DNA of 64,000 bases, taken from Selenomonas bovis DSM 23594. GTDB taxonomy: Bacteria; Bacillota; Negativicutes; Selenomonadales; Selenomonadaceae. Where the stretch lies: the NCBI RefSeq assembly GCF_000381005.1, contig NZ_KB908390.1, positions 1 to 64,000 on the forward strand, read 5' to 3'. Under the pieces are notes generated by a model. That model saw only the letters and a list, made by a program, of their open reading frames with translations. It ran no database searches and was not told the DNA's origin. Below, piece after piece: positions 1,605 through 63,620 of the stretch. Within the stretch, counting starts at the first letter, position 1. Each line of letters begins with the position of its first letter. Position numbers and translations under genes: made by a program.

Positions 1605-3193
1605 CTCAAACTTCCCACATCACCAACACTGTTCATATGAGAACAGCAAAAGGATTTCGGGGAAATAAAAAGGCGTAAAGCCTATCCTTGTCGAAAATAG
1701 ATATAGCAATAAACCATCCGAAAAGGAGCTTTACGCTATGTCTATTCTATCATAAAATCATCCAGTTGAAAACCAGGTTGCCAATTCTATCTCTCGCTTT
1801 CTTTCAGATTTTCAGGTCATCCGCTTATTCCGTGCCTGTGGCTGCGTCAAGACGAAAGGCATTTCCGTCGAGTTCCTTTTCGCCTACATCCTCGGCAATG
1901 CCTTCCGCTCTTCCAGCTTCTACATGCAGCAACGCATGCAGGAACTGCGGGGATGCTTTTCCAAGAACACGTATTACCGTTTTCTTTCCAATCCTCATGT
2001 GAACTGGCTGCATTTCACGACACGACTGGCTGTGAGGATTATCGAGCAGTTCCTGAAGCCACTGACTTCCGAGAATCGGAGGGAGTGCTTCGTCATCGAT
2101 GATTCTCTTTACGAGCGTGCCGGTTACAAGCGCACAGAGCTTGCGGCTCGTGTATTCGACCATGTATCCATGCGATACAAGAAGGGATTCCGCCTCTTGA
2201 CGCTTGGCTGGACAGATGGCGCTTCCTTCCTCCCTGTGAATTCCGTGCTGCTCTCCTCGACGAAGGACGAGAACATTCTCGGCAAGAGATGTTCCTTTGA
2301 CCATCGGACGCTCTCACATAAACGCCAAGAGATGGCATGTGAGAAGGCAACGACTGTCATGATCCACTTGCTGAAGGAGGCGCTTGACGCAGGGGCTTCC
2401 GCGCGCTACGTCCTCTTTGACAGCTGGTTTTCCAGCCCGCGGCAGTTGCTCGATGTCCTTGCGCTCAAGCTTCATACCATCGCCATGATCAAGCGAAGTT
2501 CCAAGCGTCACTATGAGTTTGAGAGGAAACGTATGACCGTCAAGCAGATTTTTGCCGCTTGTAAGAAGCGGCGCGGGCGTTCCAGGTACCTCCTGTCTGT
2601 CCCTGTGAAAATTTCAGCGAAGGACGCGGAGGGCCGTGAGGAAACAGCTGAGGCGAGAATTGTCTGCGTGCGTAATCGTCAGAATCGGAAGGATTGGATT
2701 GCCATCATCAGCACGGATATGAGCCTCAGTGAGGAGGAAATCATCCGCCTTTACGGGAGACGCTGGGACATCGAGGTGTTCTTCAAGACATGCAAGAGCT
2801 ATCTGCATCTGCGCAGCTATCACGGGCTGTCCTATGATGCGCTTACCGCACATGTGGCGTTTGTCTTTACGCGTTACATGATGCTATCTGTGACAAAGCG
2901 GAAGGATGAGGATGAGCGCGCCATCGGCGAACTGTTCTATCTGATGGTGAAGGAAATAGCCGACGTAACGTTCCAGCAGTCCATGATGATTTTGCAGGAG
3001 GTGATGCTGGCTAGTATCAAGACGGTGTTCCATGCGACCGATAAACAGCTGCAAGTAATTGCACAGGATTTCGTCAACAGACTACCGGAATATATGCGTA
3101 GTGCACTACAAAAGTCTGCGGCTTGATAATGCTTGTTGCTGAGAGCCGTATGGTTATGGGAAAAGCTCATGTTTTTCATGTGGGAAGTTTGAG
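1605..3193 (+). mobile_element. IS4-family insertion sequence, about 1.59 kb
   Basis: Perfect 16-bp terminal inverted repeats bound the element: CTCAAACTTCCCACAT at 1605-1620 and its complement at 3178-3193. Inside is one DDE transposase gene. The bases flanking the two ends do not match, so I see no target-site duplication, which suggests an old or rearranged insertion. It sits upstream of the beta-lactamase, where an IS end often provides promoter elements. Confidence 0.85.
1756..3126 (+). CDS. IS4-family DDE transposase with an early in-frame stop
   Basis: The frame encodes a DDE transposase. Catalytic acidic residues are at IDDS (2098-2103), FDSWFSSP (Asp codon 2419) and RRWDIEVFF (Glu codon 2773). 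Homology-like N-terminal sequence extends upstream of the first internal ATG (1924), back to 1756. The only ATG with a strong ribosome-binding site (AAAAGGAG) is at 1738, in the same frame, but after five codons it meets TAA at 1753-1755. No ATG, GTG or TTG occurs in frame between 1756 and 1924. The gene is therefore either inactivated by a nonsense mutation or translated only from a poor internal start. The element's inverted repeats are intact, so it could still be moved by a related transposase. Confidence 0.8.
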   Translation, partial: NHPVENQVANSISRFLSDFQVIRLFRACGCVKTKGISVEFLFAYILGNAFRSSSFYMQQRMQELRGCFSKNTYYRFLSNPHVNWLHFTTRLAVRIIEQFLKPLTSENRRECFVIDDSLYERAGYKRTELAARVFDHVSMRYKKGFRLLTLGWTDGASFLPVNSVLLSSTKDENILGKRCSFDHRTLSHKRQEMACEKATTVMIHLLKEALDAGASARYVLFDSWFSSPRQLLDVLALKLHTIAMIKRSSKRHYEFERKRMTVKQIFAACKKRRGRSRYLLSVPVKISAKDAEGREETAEARIVCVRNRQNRKDWIAIISTDMSLSEEEIIRLYGRRWDIEVFFKTCKSYLHLRSYHGLSYDALTAHVAFVFTRYMMLSVTKRKDEDERAIGELFYLMVKEIADVTFQQSMMILQEVMLASIKTVFHATDKQLQVIAQDFVNRLPEYMRSALQKSAA

Positions 3194-3249
3194 TCATATG
3201 ATATGGTCCTTGTCTTTCTTTACACAGCCTTGGTTTCCATCTTCGTCAT

Positions 3250-3969
3250 TTATCCCCGCAGATGCCGCATAAACGTCCGATAGTAAATCCCAAGCAATAC
3301 GGCTGCGAGAATCCAGGAGAGGGGGTAGCAGAGGAGGAGATTCGCGAAGGTGCGGTAGGAGGGGAAGACGAGGAAGACCCAGGCGAGGCGGGAGCCGCAG
3401 ATGGCGAAGAAGGCGATGACGGCGGGGCCGATGCTGTTGCTGTAGCCGCGCAGGGCGGCGGAGAGGGTGTCGCCGATGGCGCAGAGAAAGCTGAAGGCGA
3501 CGACGTACTCGATGCGCGTCTCCGCGAGACGGATGACCTCGGGATCGCTGGTGAAATAGGAAAAGATCGCGTGCATGGTGAGCAGCGCGAAGATGCCGTT
3601 GAGGAGCGCGATGATGACGGCGAAGGCGAGGCAGAGCGCGGCGACGGCGAGGCCGGTGAAAAGGGCGAGCAGGATGGCGGCGTGGACGGTGCGGGAGGCG
3701 TCGCGCAGCCTGCCTGCGCCGAGCGCCTGCGCGATGAGGACGTTCGCACCGAGCGAGAGACCGAGGAAGAGGTAGATGATGAGACCGACGAGCGGCGTGT
3801 TGTTGCCGACGGCGGCCATGGCGGCCGCGCTGTCATAGCGGCCGAGGATCAGCGTGTCGGCGGCGTTGAAGAGCTGCTCGAAGATGCCGGTGAGCACGAG
3901 CGGGATGGCGAAGACGATGATTTTATTCCATAGAGTGCCGTGCAGCATATCGATTTCTCTGGCGGACAT
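3250..3969 (-). CDS. MATE-family transporter with a large internal deletion
   Basis: The first about 115 residues match the N-lobe of MATE multidrug/Na+ antiporters (MSAREIDMLHG start, then the FAIPLVLTGIFEQLFNAADT helix and GLSLGANVLIAQALGAG). The remainder matches the end of the C-lobe (FTSDPEVIRLAETRIEYVV, SAALRGYSNSIGP, and the closing helices). MATE proteins are usually about 450 aa; this one is 239 aa, so roughly 200 central residues are missing with the frame intact. The start at 3969 has a GGAGG site six bases upstream; a longer frame to 4047 lacks one. A half-size protein of about six helices is unlikely to work as a normal MATE pump and may be a decaying gene. Confidence 0.75.
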   Translation of the reverse strand: MSAREIDMLHGTLWNKIIVFAIPLVLTGIFEQLFNAADTLILGRYDSAAAMAAVGNNTPLVGLIIYLFLGLSLGANVLIAQALGAGRLRDASRTVHAAILLALFTGLAVAALCLAFAVIIALLNGIFALLTMHAIFSYFTSDPEVIRLAETRIEYVVAFSFLCAIGDTLSAALRGYSNSIGPAVIAFFAICGSRLAWVFLVFPSYRTFANLLLCYPLSWILAAVLLGIYYRTFMRHLRG

Positions 3970-4090
3970 GAGATTCCTCCCTGAATTGGATATTGGTTCT
4001 GCCGGGACGGCAGGGATATACACTGTGCAGTGCGCGCTGTGACGCATCTCCCATCATGTCGTGGAGACGGATGTGATTTGTGGGGGCGTA

Positions 4091-5770
4091 TCACGGCACG
4101 ACGCGCGCGAAGAAGGGCTGCGCCGTGAGGTCGATCTCGAAGGTGCGCGGCCACGGGAAGCCGGCGCTCGCGCGCAGGTCGTAGATGGCGAGCATCTCAT
4201 CCGTGCCTGGTACGGGGAATGGGGCGCGAAGGGAGCGCGTCTGCTTGTAGACAGCGACTTGCGCGGCGAGTCGCCGCTGCAGCATGGCGGTTGCCCAGCG
4301 GTGGTTGTGCTCGAGGTCGAGATCGGCGGTGTTCGTGTAGCCAGCCTTTTTGAGCGCGCGGTTGATGGGGTCGATGTCTTCCTTGAGGTAGAAGTAGTCC
4401 TCGAGGATGCGTCCTTGGAGGAACGTCTCATTCGCCATCGCGCCCGCTTCTCTCTGTTCTTTGCTTGTGTCCGGCCGCTGTGCGGCGAGGGCGAGGGAGG
4501 CCTCCGCGAGCGCCGTGCCGACGGCGTTGCTCGTCGTGTTCCAGCCCGCGTAGGCGGTGAGGCGCGTGAGCGGGAAGTCTCGCGCGAGGAGCAGCGGCAG
4601 CAGCGGCTCGCGCGCATCGAAATGCTTGCTGAGGTCGACGAGCGCCGTCGGTTTTTCGCGCTCGACGAGCCCGCTGAGCGCTGTGCAGGCCGCGGCGCGG
4701 GCATCGAGGGAGCCCTTTTCCGCGTCGCTCGCGATCAGGTAGAGGACGAGGTCGGCGTCCTCGGGGGTATCGACGCGGCGGCCGCCGATGAGGCGGATCT
4801 TCTCGTCCGCGGTCGCGTCCACGGAGACGGCCATGTAGGGCATGACGCGCGCAGCGGCCGCTGGCTCCGCGTAGGCGACGAAGACGCGTGGGGAGAAACC
4901 CTGCTGCTCGTTCACGCAGGCGGCGAGGAGCGTCTGTGCGATTTCGTCGGCGCCGTGCGTGAGCGTGACGCGCGCGCGCGCACCGCTCGCCTCGATGGCC
5001 TGCTGCAGGCGGTATTTCTCGATGTTCGGGATGCCGTAGGGCTCGCCGTCGTCCTGGCCGAGCACGAGGCGGGCGAGGGTGCCGTCCTCGGTGAGGGCGA
5101 TGAGCTTTTCGTTGAGGCGGGCGTTCTCGTCGAAATGGCCCTCGTAGGCGGCGAGGCTTGCATCGGAGATCTTCGCGCGCAGGCGGTCGCGCTCGGCCGT
5201 ATCGATGGCGAGGCCCGCGGCTTCTCTGCCGACGAGGCGGGAGTAGGCGATGAGCACGCGCCGTTCCTCGTAGCCGTCGATGGTGTCCTGCGGCGTGAGG
5301 CGCGGCAGGATGCTGAAGGCATAGATGCGGGCCGTCGGCTGCGCAGCGTGGAGCGCGCGCAGATAGGCGACGAGCGCGTCCTGCGCCGTCTCCGTCGCCG
5401 TGTGCTCGCGCGCGGCGAGCAGGCCGCCGTAGAGGAGCTGGTCGATGGAAAGGAGCACGGTGTCGCCGGGCGCGATGGTCTCCTGGAGCCAGGCGCGAAG
5501 CCCCGCTGTGTCGCCGGGCGCGGAGTAGTAGTCCATGAGCGCGCCGGGCGGCGTCACGACGTCGCGCCCCGCGATGCGGCCGAGCGCGGCGACGTGGGCG
5601 CGGCAGGGCGGGCGGCTGTCGAGCGGCACGAGGAGCACGCGTCCCTGCGGCGCGCGCTCAGAGGCGACGGGCGTGAGGGTGGGCTGCGGGTGGATGGCGA
5701 GGTGCCAGAGGCCGAGCGCGAGGGCGAGCAGCAGGGCGAGCAGCAGCAGGCCGCGCTTTCGTTTGGACAA
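4091..5770 (-). CDS. DUF4127 family protein
   Basis: This protein of about 559 residues matches the DUF4127 family of Firmicutes. Hallmarks are the early LLVPLDSRPPC motif, DTVLLSIDQLLYGGLLAAR, DGEPYGIPNIEKYRL and the AYAGWNTTSNAVGTALAEA segment. An N-terminal helix (LLLLALLLALALGLWHLA) suggests a membrane anchor or signal with the bulk outside the cytoplasm. I chose TTG at 5770 because AAAGGA lies ten bases before it; an in-frame ATG at 5845 is also possible. The biochemical role is not established; the family resembles substrate-binding or alpha/beta hydrolase-like folds, but that is not visible here. The gene is divergent from rsmD. Confidence 0.8.
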   Translation of the reverse strand: MSKRKRGLLLLALLLALALGLWHLAIHPQPTLTPVASERAPQGRVLLVPLDSRPPCRAHVAALGRIAGRDVVTPPGALMDYYSAPGDTAGLRAWLQETIAPGDTVLLSIDQLLYGGLLAAREHTATETAQDALVAYLRALHAAQPTARIYAFSILPRLTPQDTIDGYEERRVLIAYSRLVGREAAGLAIDTAERDRLRAKISDASLAAYEGHFDENARLNEKLIALTEDGTLARLVLGQDDGEPYGIPNIEKYRLQQAIEASGARARVTLTHGADEIAQTLLAACVNEQQGFSPRVFVAYAEPAAAARVMPYMAVSVDATADEKIRLIGGRRVDTPEDADLVLYLIASDAEKGSLDARAAACTALSGLVEREKPTALVDLSKHFDAREPLLPLLLARDFPLTRLTAYAGWNTTSNAVGTALAEASLALAAQRPDTSKEQREAGAMANETFLQGRILEDYFYLKEDIDPINRALKKAGYTNTADLDLEHNHRWATAMLQRRLAAQVAVYKQTRSLRAPFPVPGTDEMLAIYDLRASAGFPWPRTFEIDLTAQPFFARVVP

Positions 5771-5848
5771 GGGGATCAGTTCCTTTCTAGTGTGTTCGCG
5801 CCGCTGAACGGCGAGGATGTTGTTACATATCTCATAGTATATCATGGT

Positions 5849-5877
5849 TCACGAACGCAGGAAAATATGATAGAATA
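5849..5877 (+). promoter_or_regulatory. candidate sigma-70 promoter for rsmD-coaD
   Basis: TTCACG at 5849-5854 and TAGAAT at 5872-5877 are separated by 17 bp in the divergent region before rsmD. The -35 box is weak. Confidence 0.4.
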
Positions 5878-59954: not shown

Positions 59955-60227
59955 TTAGGGAACTGCTGATTCATTCAAGGAATTTACCACTTTCTCTTGA
60001 GTGGATGAGAACATACCTTCTCCTCAGGAGAAGGGGGACCGCGAAGCGGTGGAAGAGGTGCTGCACGGCGGGGGAATGTGCAGAAAAACCTAAATTCGAG
60101 GCAAAACACCTCTTCCGCCTCGCTACGCTTGGCACTCCCGGGGATGCCACTGGCATCCCGCGCTGTCGCGCCCCCTGAGGGGAAGGTTAAATGAATGCGC
60201 GGCATCTATTAATCAGCGATTTCTTAG
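59955..60227. repeat. longer member of the TIR element family, about 273 bp
   Basis: Its ends are TTAGGGAACTGCTGATT and AATCAGCGATTTCTTAG, inverted repeats of the same family, but the interior differs: it carries hairpin-rich segments (CTTCTCCTCAGGAGAAGG, GATGCCACTGGCATC). The 59948-60499 gap holds this element, the terminator at 60249 and the Rpn leader; no convincing gene. Confidence 0.6.
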
Positions 60228-60248: not shown

Positions 60249-60280
60249 GACGCACAGGCCGCATCGCCTGTGCGTCTTTT
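60249..60280 (+). terminator. intrinsic terminator downstream of cstA and the repeat
   Basis: GACGCACAGGC pairs with GCCTGTGCGTC over six bases, followed by TTTT. Confidence 0.8.
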
Positions 60281-60499
60281 CCGTATGTCGAAATGAACGC
60301 CGACGCTTTCGAAAGAATCACTGCTCCCATCGGCACGCTACGTTTGCGGATCAAGGCGGGGTGTGGAGCTGATTTGTAAGAACGGCAGGTATATCTGAGC
60401 AATCGCGCGCAGGCATGAGCATCTACCAGCCCCTTGGAAAACGATATTTACAGTGAAATAGCGGTGAGATAAAATAAAAGCAAGAGAGGAGGCACGCAC

Positions 60500-61432
60500 A
60501 TGCTGACAAAGGAACAGATGTTTCAGGAACTGAATGAGAAAACGTTCAATCCGATGAACGATGTCGCGTTCAAATTTATCTTTGGCAAGGAAGAACGCAA
60601 GAATATCACGCTCGATTTCCTCGACGCATTTCTCTATGAGCGGCTCGAGCACCATATCACAGGCATCACCTACAAGAACACGGAGCTCGTGCCGCTGGCG
60701 GAGGACGGAAAGCTCACGCGGCTGGATGTTCGCTGTGACCTCAGCTCCGGCGAACAGGTCGATGTCGAGGTGCAGGTGCTGAACCTGAAAAATATGCGCC
60801 GCCGTACGCTCTACTATTGGGCGCAGATGTATCTGTTCTCGCTCGCGCGGGGGCAGACGTACCGGGATTTGAAACCGGCCATCACCATCAACATCCTGGC
60901 CTTCGAGCTGCTGCCGCAGAAAGCGCCGCTGGCCATGTACACGATCATGAATCCAGAGACGGGCGATGAGCTGAACAAGGATCTCTCGCTCTTTTTCGTG
61001 GAGATTCCGAAATTCGCCCGGGAACCGAAGAAGAAAATCAGCGAGATGACGAAGATGGAACGTTGGATGGCCTATTTTGCCAACCAACTCGACGATCACG
61101 AAAGGGAGGAACTTGCCATGAGTGATGCAGCCATCAGCGGCGCGATGGACGCCGCACGCGTGTTCCTAGCCGACGATGACGAGCGCTGGAACTACATCAA
61201 CCGCCAGATGGCCATCCTCGACTACAACTCCGGGATAAAGGATTCGCGCGAGGAAGGCCGGAGAGAAGGCCGGAGAGAAGGGATCGGCATCGGCAGGGTC
61301 GGGATGCTCGCGGAGCTTGTGCGGGACGGGGTCTTGACGCTGGGGCAGGCTGCCGAGAAGGCGGGGATGAGGGAGAAAGACTTCCGGAAGGCGATGGAAA
61401 ATCCAGAAATGTCGAACGAAGATACTCCATGA
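60500..61432 (+). CDS. Rpn-family PD-(D/E)XK nuclease with internal start
   Basis: The 310-aa protein belongs to the Rpn (recombination-promoting nuclease / putative transposase) family. The N-terminal part has NPMNDVAFKFIFG and the nuclease core Asp76 (LDVRCD) and Glu90-x-Gln92 (VDVEVQVLN). The tail has repeated EEGRREGRREG and GMLAELVRDGVLTLGQAAEKAGM. AGAGGAGG precedes ATG 60500. Inside, AAAGGGAGG at 61101-61109 stands eight bases before an in-frame ATG at 61118. Rpn genes of E. coli encode such internal C-terminal proteins that inhibit the nuclease. The C-terminal third is duplicated downstream. Confidence 0.88.
   Translation: MLTKEQMFQELNEKTFNPMNDVAFKFIFGKEERKNITLDFLDAFLYERLEHHITGITYKNTELVPLAEDGKLTRLDVRCDLSSGEQVDVEVQVLNLKNMRRRTLYYWAQMYLFSLARGQTYRDLKPAITINILAFELLPQKAPLAMYTIMNPETGDELNKDLSLFFVEIPKFAREPKKKISEMTKMERWMAYFANQLDDHEREELAMSDAAISGAMDAARVFLADDDERWNYINRQMAILDYNSGIKDSREEGRREGRREGIGIGRVGMLAELVRDGVLTLGQAAEKAGMREKDFRKAMENPEMSNEDTP
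61000..61432 (+). repeat. direct repeat unit 1 (Rpn C-terminal region)
   Basis: The segment starting GGAGATTCCGAAATTCGCCC is repeated at 61501 with few differences; the second unit has about 12 extra bases in the charged EEGxxEG stretch. Confidence 0.85.
61118..61432 (+). CDS. intragenic small protein, candidate Rpn antitoxin
   Basis: Translation from ATG 61118 would give the last 104 residues of the Rpn protein (MSDAAISGAMDAARVFLADD onward). The internal AAAGGGAGG with eight-base spacing is as good as any start in this window, and it recurs before the equivalent ATG in the duplicated copy. In E. coli, small proteins made this way from rpn genes block the full-length nuclease; the role here is inferred. 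Confidence 0.55.
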   Translation: MSDAAISGAMDAARVFLADDDERWNYINRQMAILDYNSGIKDSREEGRREGRREGIGIGRVGMLAELVRDGVLTLGQAAEKAGMREKDFRKAMENPEMSNEDTP

Positions 61433-61500
61433 GCCCCCTGTCAAGTCTCCATAGATGCGGACAGGGAAGAGCTGTGTGATTTACCCGGAAAAGTACATGG

Positions 61501-61945
61501 GGAGATTCCGAAATTCGCCCGGGAACCGAAGAAGAAAATCAGCGAGATGACGAAGATGGAACGTTGGATGGCATATTTCGCCAACCAACTTGACGATCAC
61601 GAAAGGGAGGAGCTTGCCATGAGTGATGCAGCCATCAGCGGCGCGATGGACGCCGCACGCGTGTTCCTTGCCGACGATGACGAGCGCTGGAATTACATCA
61701 ACCGCCAGATGGCCATCCTCGACTACAACTCCGGGATAAAGGATTCGCGCGAGGAAGGCCTGAAAGAAGGTCGGAGAGAAGGCCGGAGAGAAGGGATCGA
61801 CATTGGAAGGGTCGGGATGCTCGCGGAGCTTGTGCGGGACGGGATCTTGACGCTGGGGCAGGCGGCCGAAAAGGTGGGAATGCCGGAGAAAGAGTTCCAG
61901 AAGGCGATGGAAAAGCCCGAGATGTCGAACGAAGAAACGCCGTGA
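61501..61945 (+). repeat. direct repeat unit 2 (duplicated Rpn C-terminal region)
   Basis: This copy of unit 1 lacks the nuclease core. The reading frame is open from just after the Rpn TGA stop (61430-61432) through the end of this unit, so only that single stop separates the two. Confidence 0.85.
61619..61945 (+). CDS. free-standing copy of the Rpn C-terminal domain, candidate antitoxin
   Basis: The ATG at 61619 has AAAGGGAGG upstream, the same site as inside the full Rpn gene, and encodes 108 residues almost identical to the Rpn tail, with changes such as REGIDIGRVG and PEKEFQKAMEKPEMSNEETP. A longer start at 61547 (MTKMERWMAYF) is possible and would give 132 residues. Without nuclease residues, it could bind or inhibit the adjacent Rpn. 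Transcription is probably from the rpn promoter. Confidence 0.6.
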   Translation: MSDAAISGAMDAARVFLADDDERWNYINRQMAILDYNSGIKDSREEGLKEGRREGRREGIDIGRVGMLAELVRDGILTLGQAAEKVGMPEKEFQKAMEKPEMSNEETP

Positions 61946-61950
61946 AAGAA

Positions 61951-62122
61951 CGCAGATGGAGCGTTGGATGGCGTGGCTTGCCAACCGACTCGACGGCCGT
62001 GAATGTTGGGAGCTGATCGCACGTGATGTCGTGCCGCCGCAGATGAAAGGGAGAGTCTTGCCATGGGTGACGCAGTCGTGCTCCAAAATAAAAATTTGCG
62101 AATCACACGGAAAACCACTTAA
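61951..62122 (+). pseudogene. third, decayed copy of the Rpn C-terminal module
   Basis: Translated pieces match QMERWMAWLANRLDGRE of the module. The start region AAAGGGAGAG then CTTGCC and ATG (62063) with GGTGACGCAG is still recognisable, but after 19 codons the frame stops at TAA 62120. The coding sequence in between is shifted and shortened. The stop lies inside the flagellin promoter. Confidence 0.6.
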
Positions 62123-62149
62123 GTTCCGCGCGAGGCTCTCGATATATAG
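62119..62149 (+). promoter_or_regulatory. sigma-28-like promoter of the second flagellin
   Basis: TTAAGTTCC, 12 bases, then CGATATATAG. Spacing between AAGTTC and CGAT equals that of the FliA consensus. Expected start near 62155, giving a leader of about 175 nt. Confidence 0.7.
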
Positions 62150-62154
62150 AGTGT

Positions 62155-62327
62155 AAGGCAAAGATCATAAGCAGGAACACCCGGTCAGCTAGCAGCCGGG
62201 GCGGTAGCCTGCCTGGGATTTTGGAGCTGCTGATGCCTTGTTCTTTGTAGTAGCGGTTCCAGGAGTTAGTATCGGTCACGGATGGCCGTTACTCCATATT
62301 TACTGATTTATCAGGGAGGAATTTATC
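62155..62327 (+). other. structured flagellin leader with repeated GGA motifs
   Basis: The leader folds as GCAGG, CCCGG ... CCGGG, CCTGC (two nested stems at about 62172-62213). It carries GGA at several places, including CACGGATGG inside a CGG/CCG hairpin and the GGGAGGA ribosome-binding site. This is the layout of CsrA-regulated flagellin messages, an inference only. No known riboswitch pattern was recognised. Confidence 0.4.
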
Positions 62328-63620
62328 ATGGCAATGGTAGTCAAAAACAACATGTCGGCAGTCTCCACGCTGAATACGCTGAACAAGAACTCTTCCGCGC
62401 TCGCCAAGAGCCTGCAGAAGGTCTCCTCCGGCATGAAGATCAACTCCGCAGCAGATGATGCTTCGGGCTACGCTATCTCCGAGCGCATGCGCGTCCAGAT
62501 TCGCGGTCTCGACCAGGCGAACAGCAACACGCAGAACGGCACGAGCATGATGAAGGTCGCTGAGGGCGCTGTCTCCAGCACGGTCGACATCCTCAAGACT
62601 CTCAAGGAGAAGGTCATCAACGCAGCCAACGATTCCAACACGGACAGCGATCGCGCGACGATCCAGAAGGAGCTCGACCAGAGCATCGACCAGATCAACG
62701 ACAACGCGAACGTCACGTTCAACGGCAAGTACCTCGTCGACGGCTCGAAGAACGCTAAGACGGATGGCACCTGCACGGCCCTCACGAACGAGAGCCTCCA
62801 CAGCAGCACGGCATTCACGGATAGCTTTAGTGCACTGAGCGATCGTAACGGCAACAGCCTTAACATCAATAGCCTTGATACGGTTACGATGTCGTGGGTC
62901 AAGGAGGGCGTTACCTGCACGGCTTCTGTTAAGGCTTCGGGTAAACTGAATGATCTGATTAGCAAGGCATCTACTGACTTCGGCACGAGCTCGGTCGACT
63001 CCTACATCGGTAAAGATCTGGCGGGCGATACGGTCGCTACGGCGGACAAAGGCAATGCGCTGACGCTCGTCGCAGCGGGTTCCGGCGTGAGCAAACAGAT
63101 TTCCGGTGTCACGTTCAGCGTTACGAACACGAAGGGCCAGGTACAGAAGAGCGCGAATGCAGTGCTCGACAACTTCTCCGAGTCCATCCGCGCGCAGAAC
63201 AAGTCCGTTGACAACCAGATCACGCTCCAGGTCGGCACGAAGGCGAACCAGAGCATCAAGGTCGGTCTCACGGATATGCGCGCTGAGGCGCTCGGCCTCC
63301 AGAGCAGCTCGGGCCAGACGATCCAGATCGGCACGCAGGGCCAGGCAAATGCCGCCATCAACGTGCTCGACAACGCTGTGCAGAAGGCACTCGATCAGCA
63401 GACGACGATCGGCTCCGTCGAGAGCCGCCTTTCCTACACGAGCAGCAACCTCACGACGGCCAGCGAGAACGTCCAGAGCTCTGAGTCCACGATTCGCGAT
63501 GCGGATATGGCAAAAGAGATGACGGAGTACACGAAGAACAACGTGCTTCTCCAGGCAGCTCAGTCCATGCTCGCACAGGCGAACCAGAGCAGCTCGTCTG
63601 TTCTGAGCTTGCTCCAGTAA
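62328..63620 (+). CDS. flagellin (second copy)
   Basis: The 430-aa filament protein has the conserved ends: NNMSAVSTLNTLNKNSSALAKSLQKVSSGMKINSAADDASGYAISERMRVQIRGLDQA and SRLSYTSSNLTTASENVQSSESTIRDADMAKEMTEYTKNNVLLQAAQSMLAQANQ. The centre is variable. It is closer to standard flagellin than the copy at 25.7 kb and probably the main one, judging by its strong GGGAGGA site, long leader and terminator. A glycosyltransferase gene follows. Confidence 0.94.
   Translation: MAMVVKNNMSAVSTLNTLNKNSSALAKSLQKVSSGMKINSAADDASGYAISERMRVQIRGLDQANSNTQNGTSMMKVAEGAVSSTVDILKTLKEKVINAANDSNTDSDRATIQKELDQSIDQINDNANVTFNGKYLVDGSKNAKTDGTCTALTNESLHSSTAFTDSFSALSDRNGNSLNINSLDTVTMSWVKEGVTCTASVKASGKLNDLISKASTDFGTSSVDSYIGKDLAGDTVATADKGNALTLVAAGSGVSKQISGVTFSVTNTKGQVQKSANAVLDNFSESIRAQNKSVDNQITLQVGTKANQSIKVGLTDMRAEALGLQSSSGQTIQIGTQGQANAAINVLDNAVQKALDQQTTIGSVESRLSYTSSNLTTASENVQSSESTIRDADMAKEMTEYTKNNVLLQAAQSMLAQANQSSSSVLSLLQ

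Follow-up and report, generated by a model that had tools for sequence, protein, structure and literature searches.

A free-standing copy of a putative Rpn antitoxin, with one repeat more than its parent, in Selenomonas bovis

Rpn genes of Escherichia coli encode an internal antitoxin, and initiation at the internal start has been seen by ribosome profiling (Zhong et al. 2023, PMC10327210). The window analysed here, a stretch of 64,000 nucleotides from the rumen bacterium Selenomonas bovis DSM 23594, carries an intact nuclease gene of the Rpn type and, downstream of it, a second copy of the tail of that gene (Table 1), and the locus raises the question of what a free-standing tail does beside a gene that may already encode its own. 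We think it probable that the locus is an Rpn toxin with an intragenic antitoxin, and that the downstream cassette, an antitoxin (RpnS) that was copied or displaced, serves as an alternative specificity and as a recombination partner.

Table 1. Features of the rpn locus in the window, and related tail loci elsewhere
Feature	Position	Strand	Description
Sigma-70-like promoter, 5′ of rpn	60447..60475	+	TTTACA-17-TAAAAT, 10/12 consensus
Shine-Dalgarno of full-length rpn	60484..60492	+	GAGAGGAGG, read from sequence
rpn full-length gene (RpnL)	60500..61432	+	310 aa, PD-(D/E)XK nuclease; PF12784, TIGR01784, alignment, AlphaFold
Internal Shine-Dalgarno	61101..61109	+	AAAGGGAGG, 8 nt ahead of ATG 61118, which is in frame with the 310-aa ORF
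Internal ORF (RpnS), putative	61118..61432	+	104 aa, start ATG 61118
rpn four-residue repeats	61247..61294	+	REEG RREG RREG IGIG, read from translation
Free-standing tail cassette	61502..61945 (match from 61501)	+	frame open from 61433, no nuclease core
Cassette Shine-Dalgarno	61602..61610	+	AAAGGGAGG, then 8 nt, then ATG 61619
Likely cassette ORF	61619..61945	+	108 aa, start ATG 61619; alternative in-frame ATG 61547
Cassette repeats	61748..61807	+	REEG LKEG RREG RREG IDIG, one more than parent; register shift and codon alignment
Third tail copy, decayed	about 61931..62075	+	73% and 84% repeat matches, weak tail-profile match, frame broken
Orphan tail, same genome	contig C8 47785-47934 (L056 1717-2136)		AAAGGAGGAACTTGCGATG (perfect), no toxin beside; TATAAT box ~30 nt upstream
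Orphan tail, another Rpn subfamily	contig C9 1413-1613 (L057, ORF 1720-2100 of reversed locus)	reverse	MGDETTKIFLNSKGRREGID...
L107 array	2340-5854	reverse	one orphan tail and three full-length rpn, two subfamilies; exchanged distal tails

The full-length protein is placed in the Rpn family by its matches to PF12784 (E=2e-55, 188 bits against a curated cut-off of 27.4, residues 18-248) and to TIGR01784 (E=2e-40, 139 bits, cut-off 52). Residues D76, E90 and Q92, which we take to be active-site residues of the PD-(D/E)XK type, are invariant in an alignment of 51 sequences, and in the AlphaFold model (pLDDT 85) a long helix, residues 226-275, bears the four-residue repeats (250-265) and is followed by two short helices. 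A Foldseek search of this model against the PDB returned no significant fold match, a search of PDB sequences with all of RpnL no match, and PADLOC no meaningful model. The closest match to RpnL, 98% identical over the first 96 residues, comes from a Selenomonas bovis MAG. An older annotation as a putative transposase suggested a transposable element, which was rejected, no terminal inverted repeats flanking rpn. The sigma-70-like site upstream of rpn is the only promoter-like site in 60250-62330, where 1.1 would be expected by chance, and is only suggestive as the rpn promoter. Further upstream lies an imperfect inverted repeat, 60020-60185 (GCGGTGGAAGAGGTG / CACCTCTTCCGCCTC), which looks like a small non-coding repeat element and of which a narrow pattern search found no second copy.

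The initial annotation had pointed to AAAGGGAGG eight nucleotides before an in-frame ATG and to an antitoxin-like C-terminal protein made from that start; reading of the sequence confirmed the site and comparison with relatives supports the protein. The internal start, Met207 of RpnL, is invariant among the 51 aligned sequences. Among full-length family relatives, 80 distinct genes have Met at this column and 9 do not, and GGAGG stands at exactly −13 in 79 of the 80, regardless of the amino acids encoded, against one of the nine in which the column holds Ala or Glu (Fisher P=1e-9); the synonymous codons actually used at the internal Shine-Dalgarno gave a mean rank of 0.125 on resampling (P=8e-15), and both P values overstate independence, the homologues being kin. 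At residue −5 the codons are AAG (41), ATG (18), AGG (12), TTG (5) and ACG (4), so that the residue varies between K, M, R, L and T while the last base is always G. Every Lys here is AAG (41/41) and every Arg AGG (12/12), compared with 48% of Lys and 6% of Arg codons elsewhere in the same genes, and the Glu codon at −4 is GAG in 79/80 genes versus 41% elsewhere. A chance origin of the site is excluded by the spacing conserved in 79/80 homologues. The thought that Met and GGAGG are a by-product of a conserved EELAM motif in RpnL, with no internal protein at all, has in its favour that E-E-L-A-M is indeed conserved at the protein level, but it was rejected on the codon evidence and is very improbable: the codons are fixed to GGAGG while residue −5 changes, and the Met-less homologues keep similar residues yet lose the Shine-Dalgarno. 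Agreement on GGAGG over five different amino acids, together with its loss in the Met-less clade, is hard to explain without internal translation, and is strong evidence that a protein is almost certainly translated from 61118. That clade (L141, L153, L154 and L156-L161) has Ala or Glu in place of the internal Met and has lost the Shine-Dalgarno; its members may lack an internal antitoxin at this column.

The same Shine-Dalgarno and start had also been claimed for a downstream copy without a nuclease core, and this too is borne out, the match of the cassette to PF12784 being confined to the last part of the profile (positions 166-228 of 229); sequence comparison likewise supports a duplication of the antitoxin-like part as a separate module. 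Identity between the cassette and the rpn tail is 97% in a first segment of 282 nt and 89% in the final 180 nt; between these segments the register shifts from 501 to 513, the 12 nt of one four-residue repeat. Some 21 coding substitutions separate the copies in addition to these 12 nt, which makes an assembly duplicate unlikely. Similarity to the parent sets in at about −117 relative to the internal ATG. The cassette has its first in-frame ATG at 61547 (MTKMERW), but the strong Shine-Dalgarno stands before 61619 instead. The scan of 60250-62330 for promoter-like sites found no promoter for the cassette. Its model, weaker than that of RpnL (pLDDT 70), again has a long helix and two short helices; Foldseek returned nothing significant, only weak HTH-like matches, and 7TH0 (RpnA_S) was absent from the best 50 matches. 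In both models, neither of which has a significant PDB match, the predicted helix layout agrees with the description of RpnA_S.

Free-standing tails are a recurrent feature of the family. Of the distinct full-length genes, 78 are followed by 1.5 kb or more of sequence, and about 8-9 of these, roughly one in ten, have a tail-only copy just 3′ of the gene. They include, besides the window locus, L053, L121, L127 (two copies, one of them truncated), L128 and L145, and L049/L090 and L040 with fragments. A tail-only copy is present in the L107 array as well, and L142 has a longer partial copy. Nuclease-only fragments of the same subfamily were not seen beside the full gene at any of the 78 full-length loci. 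Relative to the internal ATG the copies begin at −12 (L121, L127, L049), about −21 (L128), −9 (L107), −8 (L145), −15 (L179, L182) and −14 (E. coli ypaA), so that nine of 16 start within 25 nt upstream of it (P=5e-5 against a uniform 200-nt null, with offsets read by eye and the null a rough one). The remaining copies start further upstream, and the window cassette, at −117, is among them and is not a precise case. A 1095-aa frame in L183 was set aside as an artefact of masked bases. The S. bovis genome holds two further orphan tails (Table 1), and tails with no adjacent toxin occur at other loci too; the one on contig C8 is a candidate stand-alone antitoxin in the same genome. The start of the C9 tail is found again in the Selenomonas bovis MAG, where a free-standing tail (L061, reversed locus 3737-4156) lies 3′ of an rpn with a frameshift. 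Regarding the idea that tail copies might be missing from all close relatives, for the family at large the contrary was found, since they lie downstream of other rpn genes in several genera; for the nearest relatives the sequence stops at or just after the gene, the MAG contig with the orthologous locus ending inside rpn and that of a relative at 71% identity about 310 nt after it.

A mismatch in repeat number is the usual state of parent and cassette. The number of four-residue repeats varies among homologues of the window rpn, and tail length differs between parent and cassette in 8/8 intact family pairs, most plainly in repeat number, by +4, +20, +5, +4, −12, −9, −4 and −17 residues; most of these correspond to whole repeats, and the odd values are due in part to differences at the ends or in the alignment. 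The rpnE stop in E. coli K-12 is followed at once by AAAAGGAGAGATTAATG, at which ypaA starts, and ypaA exceeds rpnE by one repeat. The repeat numbers of rpnE and its cassette differ in 14/14 sampled two-copy strains (9 distinct length pairs); since chance pairing of the observed lengths would itself give only about 9% matches, we claim no avoidance of matches.

The tails also appear to move between genes. Several family pairs hardly differ in their first 45 codons and diverge from the repeats and 3′ end onward, as in the L121 pair, with 0 differences in this first part and then a dS of about 1. Within the L107 array, neighbouring genes have cores that are 90% identical and distal tails that are only 20% identical, and two genes with cores of 40% identity have distal tails of 94%. 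In E. coli without a separate cassette, rpnE bears the cassette-type 3′ end (SEADLAANNH) in 7/7 sampled, one of them with parent-type repeats. The discordance of core and tail in L107 and the E. coli end types thus point to tails as exchangeable modules. The distal tail of the window rpn (61260-61432) is 51% identical to C9 and 41% to C32, another Rpn subfamily in the same genome, more than to its core relatives; exchange at the window rpn is possible.

We propose the following course of events for the window locus. By extension from Zhong et al. (PMC10327210), RpnS would dimerise with RpnL through the repeat-bearing helix and block the nuclease until phage attack. The cassette would be a copy of RpnS that kept its ribosome site and frame and has since come to differ by one repeat, and its Shine-Dalgarno, frame and constraint suggest that it makes a second, longer-repeat tail. 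In RpnC the addition of a single four-residue repeat puts an end to inhibition, except where toxin and antitoxin both have it (PMC10327210). By analogy with this rule, which was measured in a distant relative with an antitoxin of about half the length, the cassette would neutralise the upstream RpnL poorly because of its extra repeat. It would rather hold an alternative antitoxin specificity, directed either at a toxin variant of the same repeat number or at old toxin that remains after a tail change. It could also act as a recombination partner, the tails sharing a similar 5′ part and differing in repeats and 3′ end, in which case recombination between copies would give the toxin another tail. 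A third copy in decay is in keeping with a continuing birth and loss of tails.

The initial annotation had suggested that a separate cassette would let antitoxin dose or specificity change without touching the toxin, and of these specificity has fared better. As an extra dose of the same antitoxin the cassette would inhibit the upstream RpnL and raise the antitoxin/toxin ratio, and the near-identical first 45 codons, the intact Shine-Dalgarno and frame, and the detection of the downstream YpaA/RpnE_S as a protein in E. coli (PMC10327210) all speak for it. Set against these are the extra repeat in the cassette, the length mismatch in every intact pair compared and the loss of RpnC inhibition on addition of a single repeat (PMC10327210); a tail that is displaced and mismatched is the better fit, and a simple additional dose we judge improbable. 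That the cassette is a relic without function, left by tandem duplication and deletion, unexpressed and decaying like the third copy, we regard as rather doubtful. Decay has indeed overtaken the third copy, tandem rpn arrays exist (L107), one L127 tail is truncated and no cassette promoter was found. The cassette itself, however, retains its Shine-Dalgarno and has 6 synonymous and 0 nonsynonymous changes from −117 to +135; over the whole pair there are 12.5 synonymous and 8.5 nonsynonymous changes (dN/dS 0.036/0.205), where by our own estimate about 29 nonsynonymous changes would be expected of an unconstrained cassette. The purifying selection could date from an earlier full-gene stage. Furthermore, tail copies and not nuclease fragments persist, many of them starting at the ribosome site, and orphan tails with perfect Shine-Dalgarno sequences persist alone.

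The displaced-tail reading can be carried one step further, tentatively and with odds that we would place below even: RpnS cassettes may form a store of tail specificities. A tail would then be swapped by recombination within the repeats or within the 5′ segment that the tails share, and the oligomerisation of the toxin and the specificity of the antitoxin would change as one unit, while the displaced cassette would go on expressing the old antitoxin and make the switch non-lethal. Were this true, the repeat mismatch between toxin and cassette would be a working state and not decay. Independently of this step, the analysis widens the range of the gene-within-gene antitoxin to include a distant Rpn branch, on evidence of DNA conservation and not protein conservation. 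It also offers a testable rule, that the starts of free-standing tails tend to coincide with the internal ribosome site and that such tails differ in repeat number from the neighbouring toxin and are exchanged by recombination, which bears on the fast variation of Rpn repeats and on how a toxin could change the specificity of its antitoxin without cell death.

In polymorphic toxin systems (the orphan modules of CDI and Rhs) variable C-terminal modules are swapped by recombination and old modules are kept downstream. The likeness is an analogy only, as Rpn is not a delivered toxin and its tail is itself the antitoxin. Closer relatives are RpnA, RpnB, RpnP2 and the C. difficile Rpn, which have the same PD-(D/E)XK core, an internal start with a Shine-Dalgarno, four-residue repeats in a long helix and an HTH-like end, features that in the window are read from sequence and model. 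Closest in arrangement are the E. coli pairs, and the initial statement that no Rpn locus with such a cassette had been described proved wrong: a free-standing downstream RpnS is known as ypaA (rpnE_S) after rpnE and, in some strains, as rpnC_S after rpnC, and Rpn tails can be lost or fused (PMC10327210); we re-read rpnE-ypaA in sequence. Both E. coli pairs share with the window an internal start and a downstream free-standing copy with its own Shine-Dalgarno and a repeat number other than that of the parent (checked for rpnE). The window locus differs in belonging to another Rpn branch (PF12784), in an antitoxin of 104-108 aa compared with about 50-90, and in an internal start 43 residues before the repeats compared with 8-20, the latter a general pattern and not a defining rule (PMC10327210). 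Unlike ypaA, its copy reaches back to 117 nt before the internal start and is followed by a third, decayed one. The cassette arrangement is thus already known from E. coli, and what the sequences suggest as new here is a longer antitoxin part and tails that have been copied, mismatched and swapped.
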